A stretch of 64,000 nucleotides of DNA from Candidatus Rokuibacteriota bacterium (GTDB lineage Bacteria > Methylomirabilota > Methylomirabilia > Rokubacteriales > CSP1-6). Both the position numbers and the translations under genes were made by a program. The DNA lies in assembly GCA_003220435.1 (NCBI GenBank), contig QHSL01000068.1:1-64000 (forward strand), read 5' to 3'. Below, piece by piece: positions 25,301 through 58,877 of the stretch. The notes beneath the pieces are model-generated. The model was not told the origin of the DNA. It worked only from the letters and a program-made list of their open reading frames with translations, and made no database searches. Position 1 is the first letter of the stretch, and each line of letters starts with the position of its first letter.

Positions 25301-26799
25301 CCGCCCGCCGTCACGTCCTGGCCCTCGACCAGGGCACGACCGGATCGACCGCGCTGGTCGTCGATCCCGACGGCCGCGTCCTCGCGCGAGGGTACGCCGA
25401 GCTGCCCCAGTACTTTCCCCAGCCCGGCTGGGTCGAGCACGACCCGGAGGAGATCTGGTCGACCGTCGAGCGCGCGGCACGGGCGGCGCTGGCCGAGGCG
25501 CGCGTTGCCGCGAACGAGATCGCGGCGATCGGGATCACCAACCAGCGCGAGACGACCCTCGTCTGGGAGCGCGCGACGGGCGCGCCGATCCATCGGGCGA
25601 TCGTCTGGCAGTGCCGCCGGACGGCGCCGATGTGCGACCGGCTCCGCGCCGACGGCCTCGAATCGCTGGTGAGAGGCAAGACGGGGCTCGTCCTTGACGC
25701 CTACTTCTCCGGCACGAAGATCCGCTGGCTCCTCGACGAGGTCCCCGGCGCCCGTGCCCGCGCCGAGCGCGGCGCACTTGCGTTCGGCACCGTCGACTCG
25801 TGGCTCCTCTGGAAGCTGACGGGCGGCCGCGTCCACGCGACCGATGCGACGAACGCCTCGCGCACGCTCTGCCTCGATCTTCGTACCGCCGAGTGGGACG
25901 ACCAGCTGCTCGGGCTCCTGGGCGTTCCCCGTGGGGTACTCCCCCGCGTGGCGCCGTCCTCGGGCGTCGTCGGGGAGACGGTGGATCTGGGCTGGCTCCC
26001 GCGCGGCGTGCCGATCGCAGGGATCGCCGGCGACCAGCAGGCGGCGCTGTTCGGGCAGGCGTGCCACGAGGTCGGCGCGGCCAAGAACACCTACGGCACC
26101 GGGTGCTTCATGCTGCTCAACACCGGCGAGGCGCCGGTCGCGTCGTCGCGCGGGCTCGTGACGACGATCGCGTGGCGGATCGGCGAGCGGACGACGTATG
26201 CTCTCGAGGGCAGCGTGTTCATCGCCGGGGCCGCGATCCAGTGGCTGCGCGACGGGCTCGGGCTGCTGCGGAGCGCGGCGGAAAGCCAGACGCTCGCGGA
26301 ATCGGTCGCGGACACCGCTGGCGTCTATCTCGTCCCGGCGTTCGTCGGTCTCGGCGCGCCCCACTGGGACATGTACGCGCGCGGCACCATCGTGGGGCTG
26401 ACGCGCGGGACGACGAGCGCTCACCTCGTGCGGGCGGCGCTCGAGTCGATCGCGTTTCAGAGTCGCGACGTGCTGGAGGCGATGGCGGCCGACGCCGGCC
26501 GCACGGTTCGGGAGCTCCGGGTGGACGGCGGCGCCGCGGCGAACGATTTCCTGTGTCAGTTCCAGGCCGACGTCATGAACGTCGCGGTGCTGAGACCCGA
26601 TGTGATCGAGACGACCGCGCTCGGCGCCGCTTACCTGGCGGGGCTGGGCGCCGGCGTCTGGCGCTCGCTCGACGAGGTCGGCCGGCGCTGGACCCTTCAG
26701 CGAAGGTTCACGCCCACGCTCGACGCGGCGGCGCGGATGGCGCGCTGCGACGGCTGGCGGCGGGCGGTGGAGCGATCGAAAGGATGGATGACGGCATGA
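25297..26799 (+). CDS. glpK: Glycerol kinase
   Basis: 500 residues, standard GlpK size. FGGY-kinase signatures: N-terminal phosphate-binding [15 protein letters not shown], substrate-loop [16 protein letters not shown] and [46 protein letters not shown] and the ADP-binding [18 protein letters not shown]. It converts glycerol to G3P in the cytosol, feeding GlpD. The start ATG overlaps the upstream GDPD stop. Confidence 0.96.
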
Positions 26800-32603: not shown

Positions 32604-33257
32604 ATGTCACGACGCTCCGCCTCCCGCCTTCCGAAGATCCCCGAGATGACGATCCGTCGCCTCTCGGTCTACACCCGCTGTTTGCTGCAGCTGGAAGAAG
32701 ACGGGGTCAAGACCGTGTCCTCTCAGGAGCTGGCCGAGCGGTTCAACCTCAACTCGGCGCAGGTGCGCAAGGACCTCGCCTACTTCGGCGAGTTTGGCGT
32801 CCGCGGTATCGGCTACTACGTGTCCGGCCTGAAGGCGGAGCTCCAGCGAATTCTCGGCCTCGATCGCGAGTGGGCGGTAGCGCTCGTGGGCTTCGGCAAT
32901 CTCGGGTCGGCGCTTTTCCACTACAAGGGATTCACCCGCCAGGGGTTCCGGATCGCGGCGATCTTCGACGAGGACCCGGCAAAGGTCGCGCGCGAGGTCG
33001 AGTCGACGCCGATCTTCTCGAGCCGCGAACTTGGCCGGGAAATCAAGGCGCGCGGCATCCAGATCGCGATCATGGCGGTGCCGGCCGAAGCAGCGCAGCC
33101 CGTGGCCGACCTGCTGGTGAGCGCAGGTATCCGCGCCATCCTGAACTTCGCGCCGGCGCGGCTCAAAATTCCCAAGGACGTGCGCCTCAAGCACGTCGAC
33201 CTCTCGATCGAGCTCGAAACCCTCTCCTTCTATCTCGCCAAACCCTCCTCCCGCTAG
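32604..33257 (+). CDS. rex: Redox-sensing transcriptional repressor Rex
   Basis: 217 residues. The N-terminal winged helix (IPEMTIRRLSVYTRCLLQLE, then VSSQELAERFNLNSAQVRKDLAYFGEFG) and the Rossmann NAD(H)-binding motif VALVGFGNLGSALFHY are diagnostic. The C-terminal domain-swapped helix ends VDLSIELETLSFYLAKP. Rex dimers repress respiratory and fermentation genes until NADH rises. It lies directly after the F0 genes. No clear palindromic Rex operator was found near it, atpZ or nuoL. Confidence 0.95.
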   Translation: MSRRSASRLPKIPEMTIRRLSVYTRCLLQLEEDGVKTVSSQELAERFNLNSAQVRKDLAYFGEFGVRGIGYYVSGLKAELQRILGLDREWAVALVGFGNLGSALFHYKGFTRQGFRIAAIFDEDPAKVAREVESTPIFSSRELGREIKARGIQIAIMAVPAEAAQPVADLLVSAGIRAILNFAPARLKIPKDVRLKHVDLSIELETLSFYLAKPSSR

Positions 33258-33279
33258 CTCGTCGCCGGGGCCTGGGAGC

Positions 33280-33413
33280 GGGGGTGGTGGGGGGGGTCGC
33301 GGCGACCACGCGGCACGCGTTCGCTACTCCTCGGCGGCTTGGCTCCATCCGGGCGCGCAACTTCCGCTGCCGCTCAAAGGGAACGGGTCCTCGCGACCCC
33401 CCGCCACTCCCCC
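33280..33413 (+). repeat. Palindrome-ended repeat element, copy 1 (rex-mfd gap)
   Basis: About 134 bp with G-rich/C-rich inverted ends (GGGGGGTCGCG / CGCGACCCCCC) around a core from about 33304 to 33390 that contains ACCACGCGGCACGCGTTCGC and CTCAAAGGGAACGGGTCCT. The same core, inverted, forms the centre of 33507-33674. The 465-bp interval 33258-33722 has no gene; these two elements and about 90 bp of linker fill most of it. Confidence 0.7.
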
Positions 33414-33506
33414 TGCTCACCGACCCCGTCTACGCTTGCCGGTCTCAGCATCTTGCGACAGAGGTCCAAGCGCTTCGACCACCGCGGGTCTCGTGCCCTC
33501 GAGCGG

Positions 33507-33674
33507 TGACGGGCGTGAGGCGGGGTGCGTTGGGAGGGGTCACCAGGACCCGTTCCCTTTGAGGGTTGGCGGGCAACGTGCGCCGGGATGGAGCCCAGCC
33601 GCCGCGGGGAAGCGAACGCGTGCCGCGTGGTCTCGGTGACCCCTCCCCCAACGCACCCCGCCTCACGCCCGTCA
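33507..33674 (-). repeat. Palindrome-ended repeat element, copy 2 (inverted)
   Basis: 168 bp bounded by 38-bp inverted repeats (33507-33544 and 33635-33674), perfect apart from two extra C in the right arm. The centre is an inverted, diverged copy of the core at 33304-33390. The transcript of either strand would fold into a very long hairpin. It ends 48 bp before mfd. No coding potential is visible. A MITE-like or REP-like origin is possible. Confidence 0.75.
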
Positions 33675-33722
33675 AGGGACGGACGGCGACGAGGGCCGTG
33701 GTAGGGTAGAGGTCTTCGCGAG

Positions 33723-36700
33723 ATGTTGAGAGAGTGGCCGGCCTTCGACGAGCTGGCGAAATCCTTCGCCGAGGGTGAAGTCCGTCTGCGCGTCGCCGGC
33801 CTCACCGGTGCGGCCCGCGCGCTCGTCGTGGCCGAGCTGCTCCAGATCCATCCGCGCCCTGCGCTGGTCGTCGTCGGCAGCATGGCCGACGCGCACCGCT
33901 GGACGCAGGATCTTCGGCTCTTCGGCGCCTCGGTGCTCGAGTTCCCCCAGCCGGAGCCCAGACTGTGGCGCGGCGGGCAACATCGCGAGGCCGACGCCGA
34001 GCGCGCAACGATCGCGCGGCGGCTGGCGGTCGCCGAGCCGGTCACCGTGGTCGCCACGCCCCTGGCCCTGGACGCGCGACTCTGGAGCCCCGCCGAGTTC
34101 GCGTCGCGCACGCTCCGGCTCTCGACTGGCGACCGGCTGGACCGCGAGCTGCTGCTCGAGGCGCTCGAGCGTTGCGGCTACGAACGGGTGGAGACGGTCG
34201 TCGCCGTCGGACAGTGGAGCCTGCGCGGCGGCATCGTCGATGTCTTCTCGCCGAGCCAGGCCGCTCCGGCGCGGATCGAGTTCTTTGGCGACGACGTCGA
34301 GTCGATCCGCCTGTTCGATCCGACGTCGCAGCGCTCGGTCGGGCCTCTCGACGAGCTGCTCGTCCTGCCGCTCGCGGCGGAGGACGAGGCGCCGGAGCCC
34401 GGCGATGCCCACCTGTTCGACTATCTGCCGGCGTCGGCGCCGGTCGTGGTCGACGTGCCGAAGCTGCTCGACGGCCCGACCGAGGACGGGCCGGCCGGCC
34501 CGCCGCTCCGCGAGCGGCTCGGCGGGCGGCAGCTCGTCGAGCTGAGCCTGCTCGCCGGCACTTCCAGCGCGGCGGCGGGCGCCGCTCCCGCGACGGAGTT
34601 CACGCTGGAGACGCTCGAAGTTTCAGGCTTTACCGGACGCTTCAAGGAGCTCACCGCGGAGCTGGGGCGCTGGCGCGCCGAGGGCTTCCGCGTTCGCCTC
34701 ACCGCCGCCGACGAGCGCCAGGCGGAACACGTGCGCCAGATCCTGCGCGAGCACGACGTCGAAGCCACTATCGCGTCGTCGCTCGATGGCGTGGAGCCGC
34801 TGGCGATCGTCGTCGGCGACTGTTCCGCCGGCTTCGCGATCCCGGCCCTCGGCGTCATCGTGCTCACCGAGGGCGAGGTCTTCGGCTCCCGGCGGCGGTC
34901 GCTCCGCCGGCCCAAGTATCAGCGTGGCGCCGAGCTCACCGCGTTCACCGATCTGGCGATCGGCGATGTCGTCGTCCACGAGGACCACGGGCTCGGGCGT
35001 TACCTCGGCTTGCAGACGATGAAGATCGGCGATCGCGAAGGCGATTTCCTGCTGCTCGAGTACGCCGAGGGTAACCGCCTCTACCTGCCGGTCGAGCGCC
35101 TGGACCGCATCTCGAAATACCTCGGCGGGGACACCGAGGCCGCGCGGCTGGATCGTCTCGGCGGCGCCTCCTGGCAGCGGGTCAAGGAGTCGGTGCGCGC
35201 GGCGCTGCGCGAGATGGCCGAGGGGCTGCTGCGCCTGTACGCGCAGCGCGCGGTGGCGGGCGGGCACGCGTTCGCGACGGACACGTCATGGCAGCGCGAG
35301 TTCGAGGCGTCGTTCCGGTTCGAGGAGACATCGGATCAGCTGCGGGCGATCGAGGAAGCCAAGCGCGACATGGAATCGGGGCGGCCGATGGACCGCCTCG
35401 TCGCCGGCGACGTGGGATACGGCAAGACAGAGGTCGCACTCCGCGCCGCCTTCAAGGCGGTGGCGGACGGCATGCAGGTCGCGGTGCTGGTGCCGACGAC
35501 GGTGCTGGCCCAGCAGCACTGGTCGACATTCGCCGACCGCTTCGCGCCCTTTCCGGCCAAGGTCGAGCTGCTGTCGCGCTTCCGCTCGCCCAAGGAGCAG
35601 AAGGCGGTCATCGAGTCGCTGCGGCGGGGTAGCGTCGACGTCGTGATCGGCACCCACCGGCTCCTCTCGAAGGACGTCACCTTCAAGAATCTGGGCCTGA
35701 TGGTCATCGACGAGGAGCATCGGTTCGGCGTCGCCCACAAGGAGCGGATGAAGCAGCTGCGCGCCTCGGTGGACGTGCTGGCCCTCACGGCCACGCCGAT
35801 TCCGCGAACGCTCTACATGTCGCTCTCCGGAGTGCGGGACATGTCGGTGATCGAGACTGCGCCGCTGGACCGGCTCCCGGTCGAGACGGTCATCCGCCGC
35901 TTCAGCAAGGCGGTCATCAAGGAGGCGCTCGAGCGTGAGCTGGAGCGGGGCGGCCAGGTGTTCTTCGTCCACAACCGGGTCCAGTCGCTGCCCTCGATGG
36001 TGAAGTTCGTCCAGGAGCTGGTTCCCGAGGCGCGCGTGATCATGGGCCATGGCCAAATGAAGGAGCGCGAGCTCGAGGCCACGATGGTGAAGTTCGTCAC
36101 GGGTCAGGCCGACGTCCTCGTCTCGACGGCGATCGTCGAGTCCGGCCTGGACATCCCAGCGTCCAACACAATCATCGTCAACCGGGCGGATCGCTTCGGC
36201 CTGGCCCAGCTCTACCAGCTCCGCGGGCGGGTCGGCCGGGAGCGCCAGCAGGCCTACGCCTATCTGCTGGTGCCGGCGGACGGTCGGGTGGACGAGCAGG
36301 CGCAGCGGCGCCTCCGGGCCCTTCAGGAGCTGACCGAGCTCGGCTCTGGGTTCAAGCTCGCGCTGCGGGACCTCGAGATCCGCGGGGCGGGGAACCTCCT
36401 GGGCGCCCAGCAGCACGGCCACATCGCCGCCGTCGGCTACGATCTTTATTCGAAGCTCCTCGCCGAAGCTGTGCGAGAATTGGCCGGCGTCCCGACGGCA
36501 GCCACGATCGATCCCGTGATCAGCGTGAGCGTCGAGGGGTTCTTGCCCGACGAGTATGTTCCAGAGGTCAACCAGCGGCTCGCTCTCTACAAGCGCCTCG
36601 CCGGAGCCGTCAGCGATCCGGAGGTCGCCGATCTCCGTGCGGAGCTGGCCGACCGGTTCGGTCCACTTCCGCCTGCGGCCGAGCAGCTCCTGGACATCGT

Positions 36701-36947
36701 CCGCATCCGCGTGGCCGCGCGCACGGTGGGGGTCGAGAAGATCGAGGCGGGCGAGGGCAAAGCTCTGGTCACATTCTCACCCGGAACCACGCTCGATCCC
36801 GAGCGGCTCGTTCGCACCATCCAGCGGAGCCGCGGCCGACTCAAGATGAAGCGCGAGTTCACCCTTGAGGCGACGGTAGAGCGCGGCGAATGGCCGCGCG
36901 TCCGCGACTCGCTGCTCCGCCTGCTCGACGACCTGGGCCGGTCGTGA
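33723..36947 (+). CDS. mfd: Transcription-repair coupling factor
   Basis: 1074 residues. Order: UvrB-like N-terminal module (1-300), the CarD-like RNA-polymerase interaction domain (about 405-470, FTDLAIGDVVVHEDHGLGRYL), then a RecG-like translocase with Walker A GDVGYGKTEVALRAAFKA, Walker B VIDEEHRFGV, TATPIPRTLYMS, and SGLDIPASNTIIVNRADRFGLAQLYQLRGRVGR. The C-terminal TRCF domain is present. It displaces RNA polymerase stalled at lesions and recruits UvrA. The gene overlaps the next by 4 bp. Confidence 0.97.
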   Translation: MLREWPAFDELAKSFAEGEVRLRVAGLTGAARALVVAELLQIHPRPALVVVGSMADAHRWTQDLRLFGASVLEFPQPEPRLWRGGQHREADAERATIARRLAVAEPVTVVATPLALDARLWSPAEFASRTLRLSTGDRLDRELLLEALERCGYERVETVVAVGQWSLRGGIVDVFSPSQAAPARIEFFGDDVESIRLFDPTSQRSVGPLDELLVLPLAAEDEAPEPGDAHLFDYLPASAPVVVDVPKLLDGPTEDGPAGPPLRERLGGRQLVELSLLAGTSSAAAGAAPATEFTLETLEVSGFTGRFKELTAELGRWRAEGFRVRLTAADERQAEHVRQILREHDVEATIASSLDGVEPLAIVVGDCSAGFAIPALGVIVLTEGEVFGSRRRSLRRPKYQRGAELTAFTDLAIGDVVVHEDHGLGRYLGLQTMKIGDREGDFLLLEYAEGNRLYLPVERLDRISKYLGGDTEAARLDRLGGASWQRVKESVRAALREMAEGLLRLYAQRAVAGGHAFATDTSWQREFEASFRFEETSDQLRAIEEAKRDMESGRPMDRLVAGDVGYGKTEVALRAAFKAVADGMQVAVLVPTTVLAQQHWSTFADRFAPFPAKVELLSRFRSPKEQKAVIESLRRGSVDVVIGTHRLLSKDVTFKNLGLMVIDEEHRFGVAHKERMKQLRASVDVLALTATPIPRTLYMSLSGVRDMSVIETAPLDRLPVETVIRRFSKAVIKEALERELERGGQVFFVHNRVQSLPSMVKFVQELVPEARVIMGHGQMKERELEATMVKFVTGQADVLVSTAIVESGLDIPASNTIIVNRADRFGLAQLYQLRGRVGRERQQAYAYLLVPADGRVDEQAQRRLRALQELTELGSGFKLALRDLEIRGAGNLLGAQQHGHIAAVGYDLYSKLLAEAVRELAGVPTAATIDPVISVSVEGFLPDEYVPEVNQRLALYKRLAGAVSDPEVADLRAELADRFGPLPPAAEQLLDIVRIRVAARTVGVEKIEAGEGKALVTFSPGTTLDPERLVRTIQRSRGRLKMKREFTLEATVERGEWPRVRDSLLRLLDDLGRS

Positions 36948-58707: not shown

Positions 58708-58877
58708 GCCGATGAAAACCGCCCATCTCGGCAGATCGCAACCAAGCTCCTGTTGCTCGCGGCCGATCAAAACCGTCCCAGATGCGAGGCGCCGACGAGC
58801 GACGACTGAGGCGTATGCCGCATACGCCGCAGGGAGGAGCGAGGAGGCAACGAAGCAGATGGGCGGTTTTCATCGGC
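58708..58877. repeat. 170-bp inverted-repeat element between rpsJ and rplC
   Basis: Begins 2 bp after the rpsJ stop and ends 21 bp before the rplC ATG. The ends are a perfect 21-bp inverted repeat (58708-58728 and 58857-58877, containing GATGAAAACCGCCCATCT on the left). Inside is a second palindrome, GGCGTATGC / GCATACGCC, at 58810-58828. No target duplication or transposase frame is visible. S10 operons normally have only a short gap here. Confidence 0.75.

Follow-up and report, generated by a model that had tools for sequence, protein, structure and literature searches.

A dispersed hairpin element of Rokubacteria with a conserved core and variable, mutually complementary arms

Two hairpins of opposite orientation, located between the rex and mfd genes of a Candidatus Rokuibacteriota bacterium, represent an apparently undescribed element of ~160 bases that is dispersed in Rokubacteria soil bacteria at ~30 copies per genome. 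The element spans ~150 to 170 bp and consists of an 86-nt core closed by a stem of 30 to 40 bp. We estimate at about one half the probability that it is a structured 3′-end or insulator RNA element, the arms of which are re-matched by compensatory change, probably aided by template switching; position and structure are what suggest such a role. Literature searches for repeats or structured RNAs of this kind in Rokubacteria, and for the general theme, found none described.

The two hairpins lie in the rex-mfd gap of the window, i.e., the whole 64,000-nucleotide stretch of DNA that was analysed, and are arranged as follows.

32604–33257, + strand: rex (redox-sensing repressor), open reading frame with the stop at 33257; orthologues in 51 of 55 genomes
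33277–33303: left arm of copy 1, G-rich, pairing with 33390–33418
33304–33389, − strand: conserved 86-nt core of copy 1, GACCCGTTCCC..GATGGAGCCAAGCC..GCGTGCCGCGTGGTC on the − strand; covariance model (CM) score 106 bits
33390–33418: right arm of copy 1, C-rich, pairing with the left arm
33419–33506: spacer separating copies 1 and 2, which stand in −/+ (head-to-head) order
33507–33546: left arm of copy 2, G-rich, its 33-nt outer part 94% complementary to 33642–33674
33547–33632, + strand: conserved 86-nt core of copy 2, GACCCGTTCCC..GATGGAGCCCAGCC..GCGTGCCGCGTGGTC; CM score 108.5 bits
33633–33674: right arm of copy 2, C-rich, with a 2-nt bulge
33723–36947, + strand: mfd (transcription-repair coupling factor), open reading frame downstream of copy 2; gene order is the same in relatives

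Copy 1 (33277–33418), starting ~20 nt past the rex stop codon, folds with a minimum free energy of −85.6 (z = −4.8 against 200 dinucleotide shuffles), and copy 2 (33507–33674) with −131.1 (z = −10.2). When one copy is inverted, the two match at 78% over 133 nt, with high identity in the core and low identity in the arms; the cores are ~80% alike, whereas the arms are unrelated between the copies yet self-complementary within each. Alignment and folding thus confirm the preliminary description of this locus as two oppositely oriented copies of one core, each with its own inverted ends; the end of the interval given there (33280–33674) stands, and the start moves to 33277. Inverted repeats of this kind are hardly expected by chance, none with a score of 18 or more being found in 200 kb of shuffled sequence of the same origin. 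The inverted-repeat scan also flagged 25350–25549 as a third copy in the window, which proved to be a false match within a coding gene, probably for glycerol kinase as judged by its sequence. Separately, a short motif resembling GTGGTANNGTA upstream of mfd (window ~33695–33712) is kept across Rokubacteria genera and may be the mfd promoter.

The preliminary description staked its reading on further copies being present, and there are about 30 in this genome. BLAST found ~31 places matching copy 2 at E < 1e-6 (two more matches being the element's own arms), and a CM built from 41 copies yielded 30 matches here and 10 to at least 40 per genome across the genus. Of the 95 phylum genomes searched, 25 gave CM matches; every one of these belongs to a single Rokubacteria family, and the sister families gave none. 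In a pattern scan of named genomes every record among the matches listed was Candidatus Rokubacteria/Rokuibacteriota, and viral contigs contained no exact pattern match to the element. Within this genome, core identities are mostly 75% to 85%, and the only near-identical, recent copies are an assembly-end duplicate. None of the Rfam 15 covariance models matched the element at the gathering score, the best being miRNA models far below it; one marginal match, to a viral RNA, fell in a hairpin with another core and is presumably due to chance.

The family combines a constant core with arms that vary from copy to copy and nevertheless pair. Among the 124 copies with extractable arms, Watson-Crick pairing between the arms is 90% to 98% at positions 5 to 34 outward from the core, drops from position 35 and reaches a background of ~60% to 70% past ~38, so that arm length is nearly constant, at 35 to 41 nt from the core. 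Semi-conservation is confined to the innermost 8 to 10 nt of the arms (GGGGTCG/CGACCCC) and does not extend to the outer ~25 nt; the outer arms of paralogous copies are 61% alike once aligned. The 5′ arm is G-rich, with 1626 G-C against 771 C-G pairs. Conserved cores with copy-specific but self-complementary arms, as first described for the window, were borne out in nearly all copies; the few failures to pair include two units of a tandem triplication. In that locus (L313, genome G007, C60:59300–60900), three near-identical copies of the element lie ~181 bp apart, and the last alone has a fully matching 3′ arm, those of the other two being unpaired. The 845 kb of sequence collected for the analysis hold ~132 genuine long inverted repeats, and 128 of these contain the core; as the loci had been chosen mostly for holding it, this shows that coreless long hairpins are rare rather than how frequent the core is.

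Comparison of orthologous sites revealed both persistence and turnover. In the rex-mfd gap, both copies are present in the congeners G002, G007 and G008; G003 and G001 have the + copy only, G001 still showing a vestige of the − copy; G005 has the − copy only; and G006 carries a degenerate hairpin. In the other genera that were examined, the gap is without this core except for one weak match in G023, and in G020 it holds a long hairpin with another core. Nine other sites range from one with the element in all seven congeners (L005) to one with the element in this genome alone (L002). At site L006, the element is found in this genome (G000) and G003 only; empty sites were identified in the others, their flanks being too diverged to define the joint for a comparison of target-site duplications. 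These empty sites (L273, L265, L258 and L255) keep, upstream of the next gene, GTTGACC...GCGTAGAT, which looks like a −35/−10 promoter, and the element in this genome ends directly before it. At site L012, two species have this core, four have another core with arms starting at the same stop codon, and G006 has a 20-bp hairpin without a core. In G003, the species nearest to this genome (flanking coding sequence ~90% identical), most orthologous copies rank first among 26, and one of these is inverted relative to the flanks (L010/L270, identity 0.90, rank 1 of 26). In species more distant than G003, some other copy frequently matches better than the orthologous one, which makes descent indistinguishable there from re-insertion at the same site, and several more distant inverted cases fit inversion and re-insertion alike.

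Orthologous copies are most alike in the core (0.84), less so in the arms (0.70 to 0.73) and least outside on the 5′ side (0.58). We ran on them the check for compensatory substitutions that had been proposed for this family: 53 arm positions had changed on both sides with pairing kept, against 34 that had changed to G.U (15) or to a mismatch (19), and the matched changes in both arms include paired changes in arm length. Adjacent double changes were weakly clustered, although not significantly so (9 versus 5.5 expected, p = 0.07).

The arms also provide an indication of the transcribed strand. When the core is read as GACCCGU...GCGUGGUC, G.U outnumbers A.C in the arms 60 to 25 (p = 2e-4; counted by copy, 42 to 19, p = 0.004), which supports the view that pairing is selected for in a single RNA strand and makes this strand probably the RNA. 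The excess keeps its sign whatever the direction of the neighbouring genes, and it recurs in hairpins that have other cores and were oriented by the ends they share (16 to 5, p = 0.03). The call rests on G.U versus A.C because folding energy shows no strand preference, the reverse complement folding on average as well as the + strand. In the core helices predicted by RNAalifold, U-A, U-G and C-G are used as alternatives, and two-sided changes occur at 5 pairs, exceeding what shuffles and shifted structures give; covariation within the core is thin because the core hardly varies.

The genomic context points to gene ends. With flanking genes called by a simple codon-bias gene finder made for this analysis, 11 of 110 copies lie between divergent and 31 between convergent genes, and with a looser gene call the counts are 5 and 38 of 93. 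The elements are thus mostly behind stop codons, with 5% to 10% of the copies between divergent genes. The 3′ side of the core tends to be near the stop of a gene on the opposite strand, the median distance from core end to gene end being 53 to 54 nt, i.e., ~15 nt beyond the arm, and pairs of elements within 600 bp are nearly all in −/+ order with their 5′ ends facing. As GC-rich hairpins behind stop codons, the elements share a feature of intrinsic (rho-independent) terminators. Past the arms, there is no T enrichment on either side, and no promoter or terminator motifs adjoining the arms were found; since both T-run and promoter motif are absent there, classic intrinsic termination is not supported.

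Under the reading that we favour, the GACCCGU...GCGUGGUC strand would be transcribed and the RNA would fold as a multi-helix core atop a long stem. The core would be the recognised part, and the stem would need to be double-stranded, its sequence being immaterial, so that selection on changes would keep the arms paired. At gene ends, such an element could work in both directions, as a transcription end or an RNase III-processed 3′ end, or as an insulator. Many of the arm changes probably arose by template switching during replication, in which one arm would be copied onto the other and the core sometimes flipped. Template switching between arms homogenises inverted repeats and flips the spacers between them (PMC8604942); it has also been put forward as a process that creates and maintains RNA stems and gives an excess of G-C over C-G pairs (PMC8794818). 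The inverted cores, the coupled changes in both arms and the surplus of G-C pairs seen here all fit this mechanism. One template-switch model also predicts an excess of U-A over A-U pairs, which is lacking in the arms (205 to 192); because of this, and because the clustering of changes is not significant, template switching is a likely rather than a proven contributor to arm evolution. The Rokubacteria hairpins resemble those known to evolve by template switching in their complementary arms, matched two-arm changes, inversion of the spacer or loop and G-C excess. The latter hairpins were described for short repeats and for rRNA and miRNA stems, with loop inversions being rare (PMC8604942, PMC8794818), whereas the family described here is dispersed, has arms of 30 to 40 bp and repeatedly shows flipped cores. 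The earlier idea of compensatory change holds, selection for pairing agreeing with the predominance of G.U over A.C; core inversion, paired length changes and the 2:1 ratio of G-C to C-G suggest that selection on point changes is perhaps not the whole story.

The same observations (core inversions, G-C asymmetry, matched two-arm changes and the existence of a known mechanism, PMC8604942) would be expected if template switching alone kept the arms alike and the stem were a functionless product of DNA mutation. We consider this improbable, given that conservation is higher in the core than around it, that the arms tolerate G.U better than A.C in an orientation fixed by the core, and that arm length stays constant over deep divergence while the flanks are randomised. 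A more serious contender, although still a doubtful one, is a non-autonomous mobile element (MITE- or REPIN-like) inserting behind stop codons; its arms would be taken over from the target or remodelled there, and site differences would reflect repeated insertions. Differences in presence (L002 in this genome only among the 7 compared, L006 only in G000 and G003), differing core types at one site, the fixed −/+ order of paired copies and the many paralogues are all in line with mobility. Against it stand the absence from this genome of near-identical recent copies other than the assembly-end duplicate, the usual best match of orthologous copies in the nearest species, the lack of matches in viral contigs, and end sequences that are not conserved, which leaves transposase recognition ends and target duplications undefinable. 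Furthermore, the linked REP-type transposase that the preliminary description suggested looking for did not turn up: in a search in which the controls matched, PF01797 (RAYT/Y1 transposase) had no hits in any of the 9 genomes of the genus or in those sampled from other core-rich genera (g4, g5, g13, g14, g22 and g24), and no mobility gene recurrently flanks the copies, the flanking gene clusters being orthologues or common families. Least probable, in our estimation, is that the core is itself a small mobile unit entering pre-existing long hairpins (terminators), the arms belonging to the target. Site L012, with different cores at the same arm position and the bare 20-bp hairpin of G006, could be seen in this way, but that hairpin is equally readable as core loss, coreless long hairpins are almost absent, and the arms end at a nearly constant 35 to 41 nt from the core.

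Like REP/BIME elements and REPINs, the element occurs between genes in dozens of palindromic copies, which frequently follow stop codons and frequently form inverted pairs; REPs measure 20 to 40 bp (PMC3733652) and are associated with RAYT (Y1) transposases (PMC3116915). Unlike REPs and REPINs, which conserve the stem sequence, the Rokubacteria element has variable arms around its 86-nt core and a genus devoid of the Y1 transposase. The MITE hairpins of the ERIC/IRU, NEMIS and Correia types are intergenic palindromes of 100 to 180 bp, which can form long RNA hairpins and have conserved terminal inverted repeats; here, by contrast, the terminal arms of one copy bear no relation to those of another, so the conserved terminal repeats that define a MITE are lacking. 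The double-hairpin elements of fungal mitochondria are dispersed hairpins combining conserved with variable paired parts, and are comparable by layout alone, being of other organisms and another size. Integron attC sites have conserved outer R/L boxes and a variable centre, the reverse of the conserved centre and variable ends of the Rokubacteria element.

About 20 other long-armed hairpins in Rokubacteria (arms ~30–60, spacer ~58–83) lack this core. Their cores begin with (G)ACCCGTGTTTC or CGTGTAGTCAG, and many end with GCGTGGTC; since they share build and ends, the elements of the window seem to represent one branch within a larger set. Similarly built hairpins that carry other cores and the ends GACCCGTGTTTC / GCGTGGTC or CGTGTAGTCAG, possibly a superfamily, were observed at the following places.

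L176: 3468–3894, 7607–7758 and 10926–11093
L248: 9769–10120
L128: 6086–6223
L053: 1916–2075
L197, L200, L204, L307, L308, L310 and L311

We raise only tentatively that structured RNAs with the ends GACCCGUGUUUC.../...GCGUGGUC and several different cores make up a superfamily spanning the lineage and acting at gene ends in either orientation, in which the 30- to 40-bp stem is repeatedly rewritten by replication template switching, a process that would both keep the stem perfect and flip the core; if true, this would be a functional RNA family evolving mainly through arm-to-arm copying. A different inverted repeat, with the arm GCCGATGAAAACCGCCCATCT and an inner hairpin GGCGTATGCCGCATACGCC, lies at 58708–58877 of the window, between the probable genes for ribosomal proteins S10 and L3. 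Similar arms occur at L201:12928–13049 and, in another genus, at L243:13979–14147, making it probably a second dispersed repeat family.

In dispersed palindromes of bacteria, the stem is normally kept and the loop drifts; in the Rokubacteria family, this is reversed, the stem drifting and the core being kept. With arms that change fast and yet stay complementary, the family is a natural case for studying how RNA or DNA stems retain pairing. Tens of copies per genome in many relatives amount to hundreds of replicate stems, which allow one to ask whether pairing is retained by slow compensatory point changes via G.U or by one-step template switching. The family also hints at an undescribed RNA or 3′-end element in a large uncultured lineage of soil bacteria.
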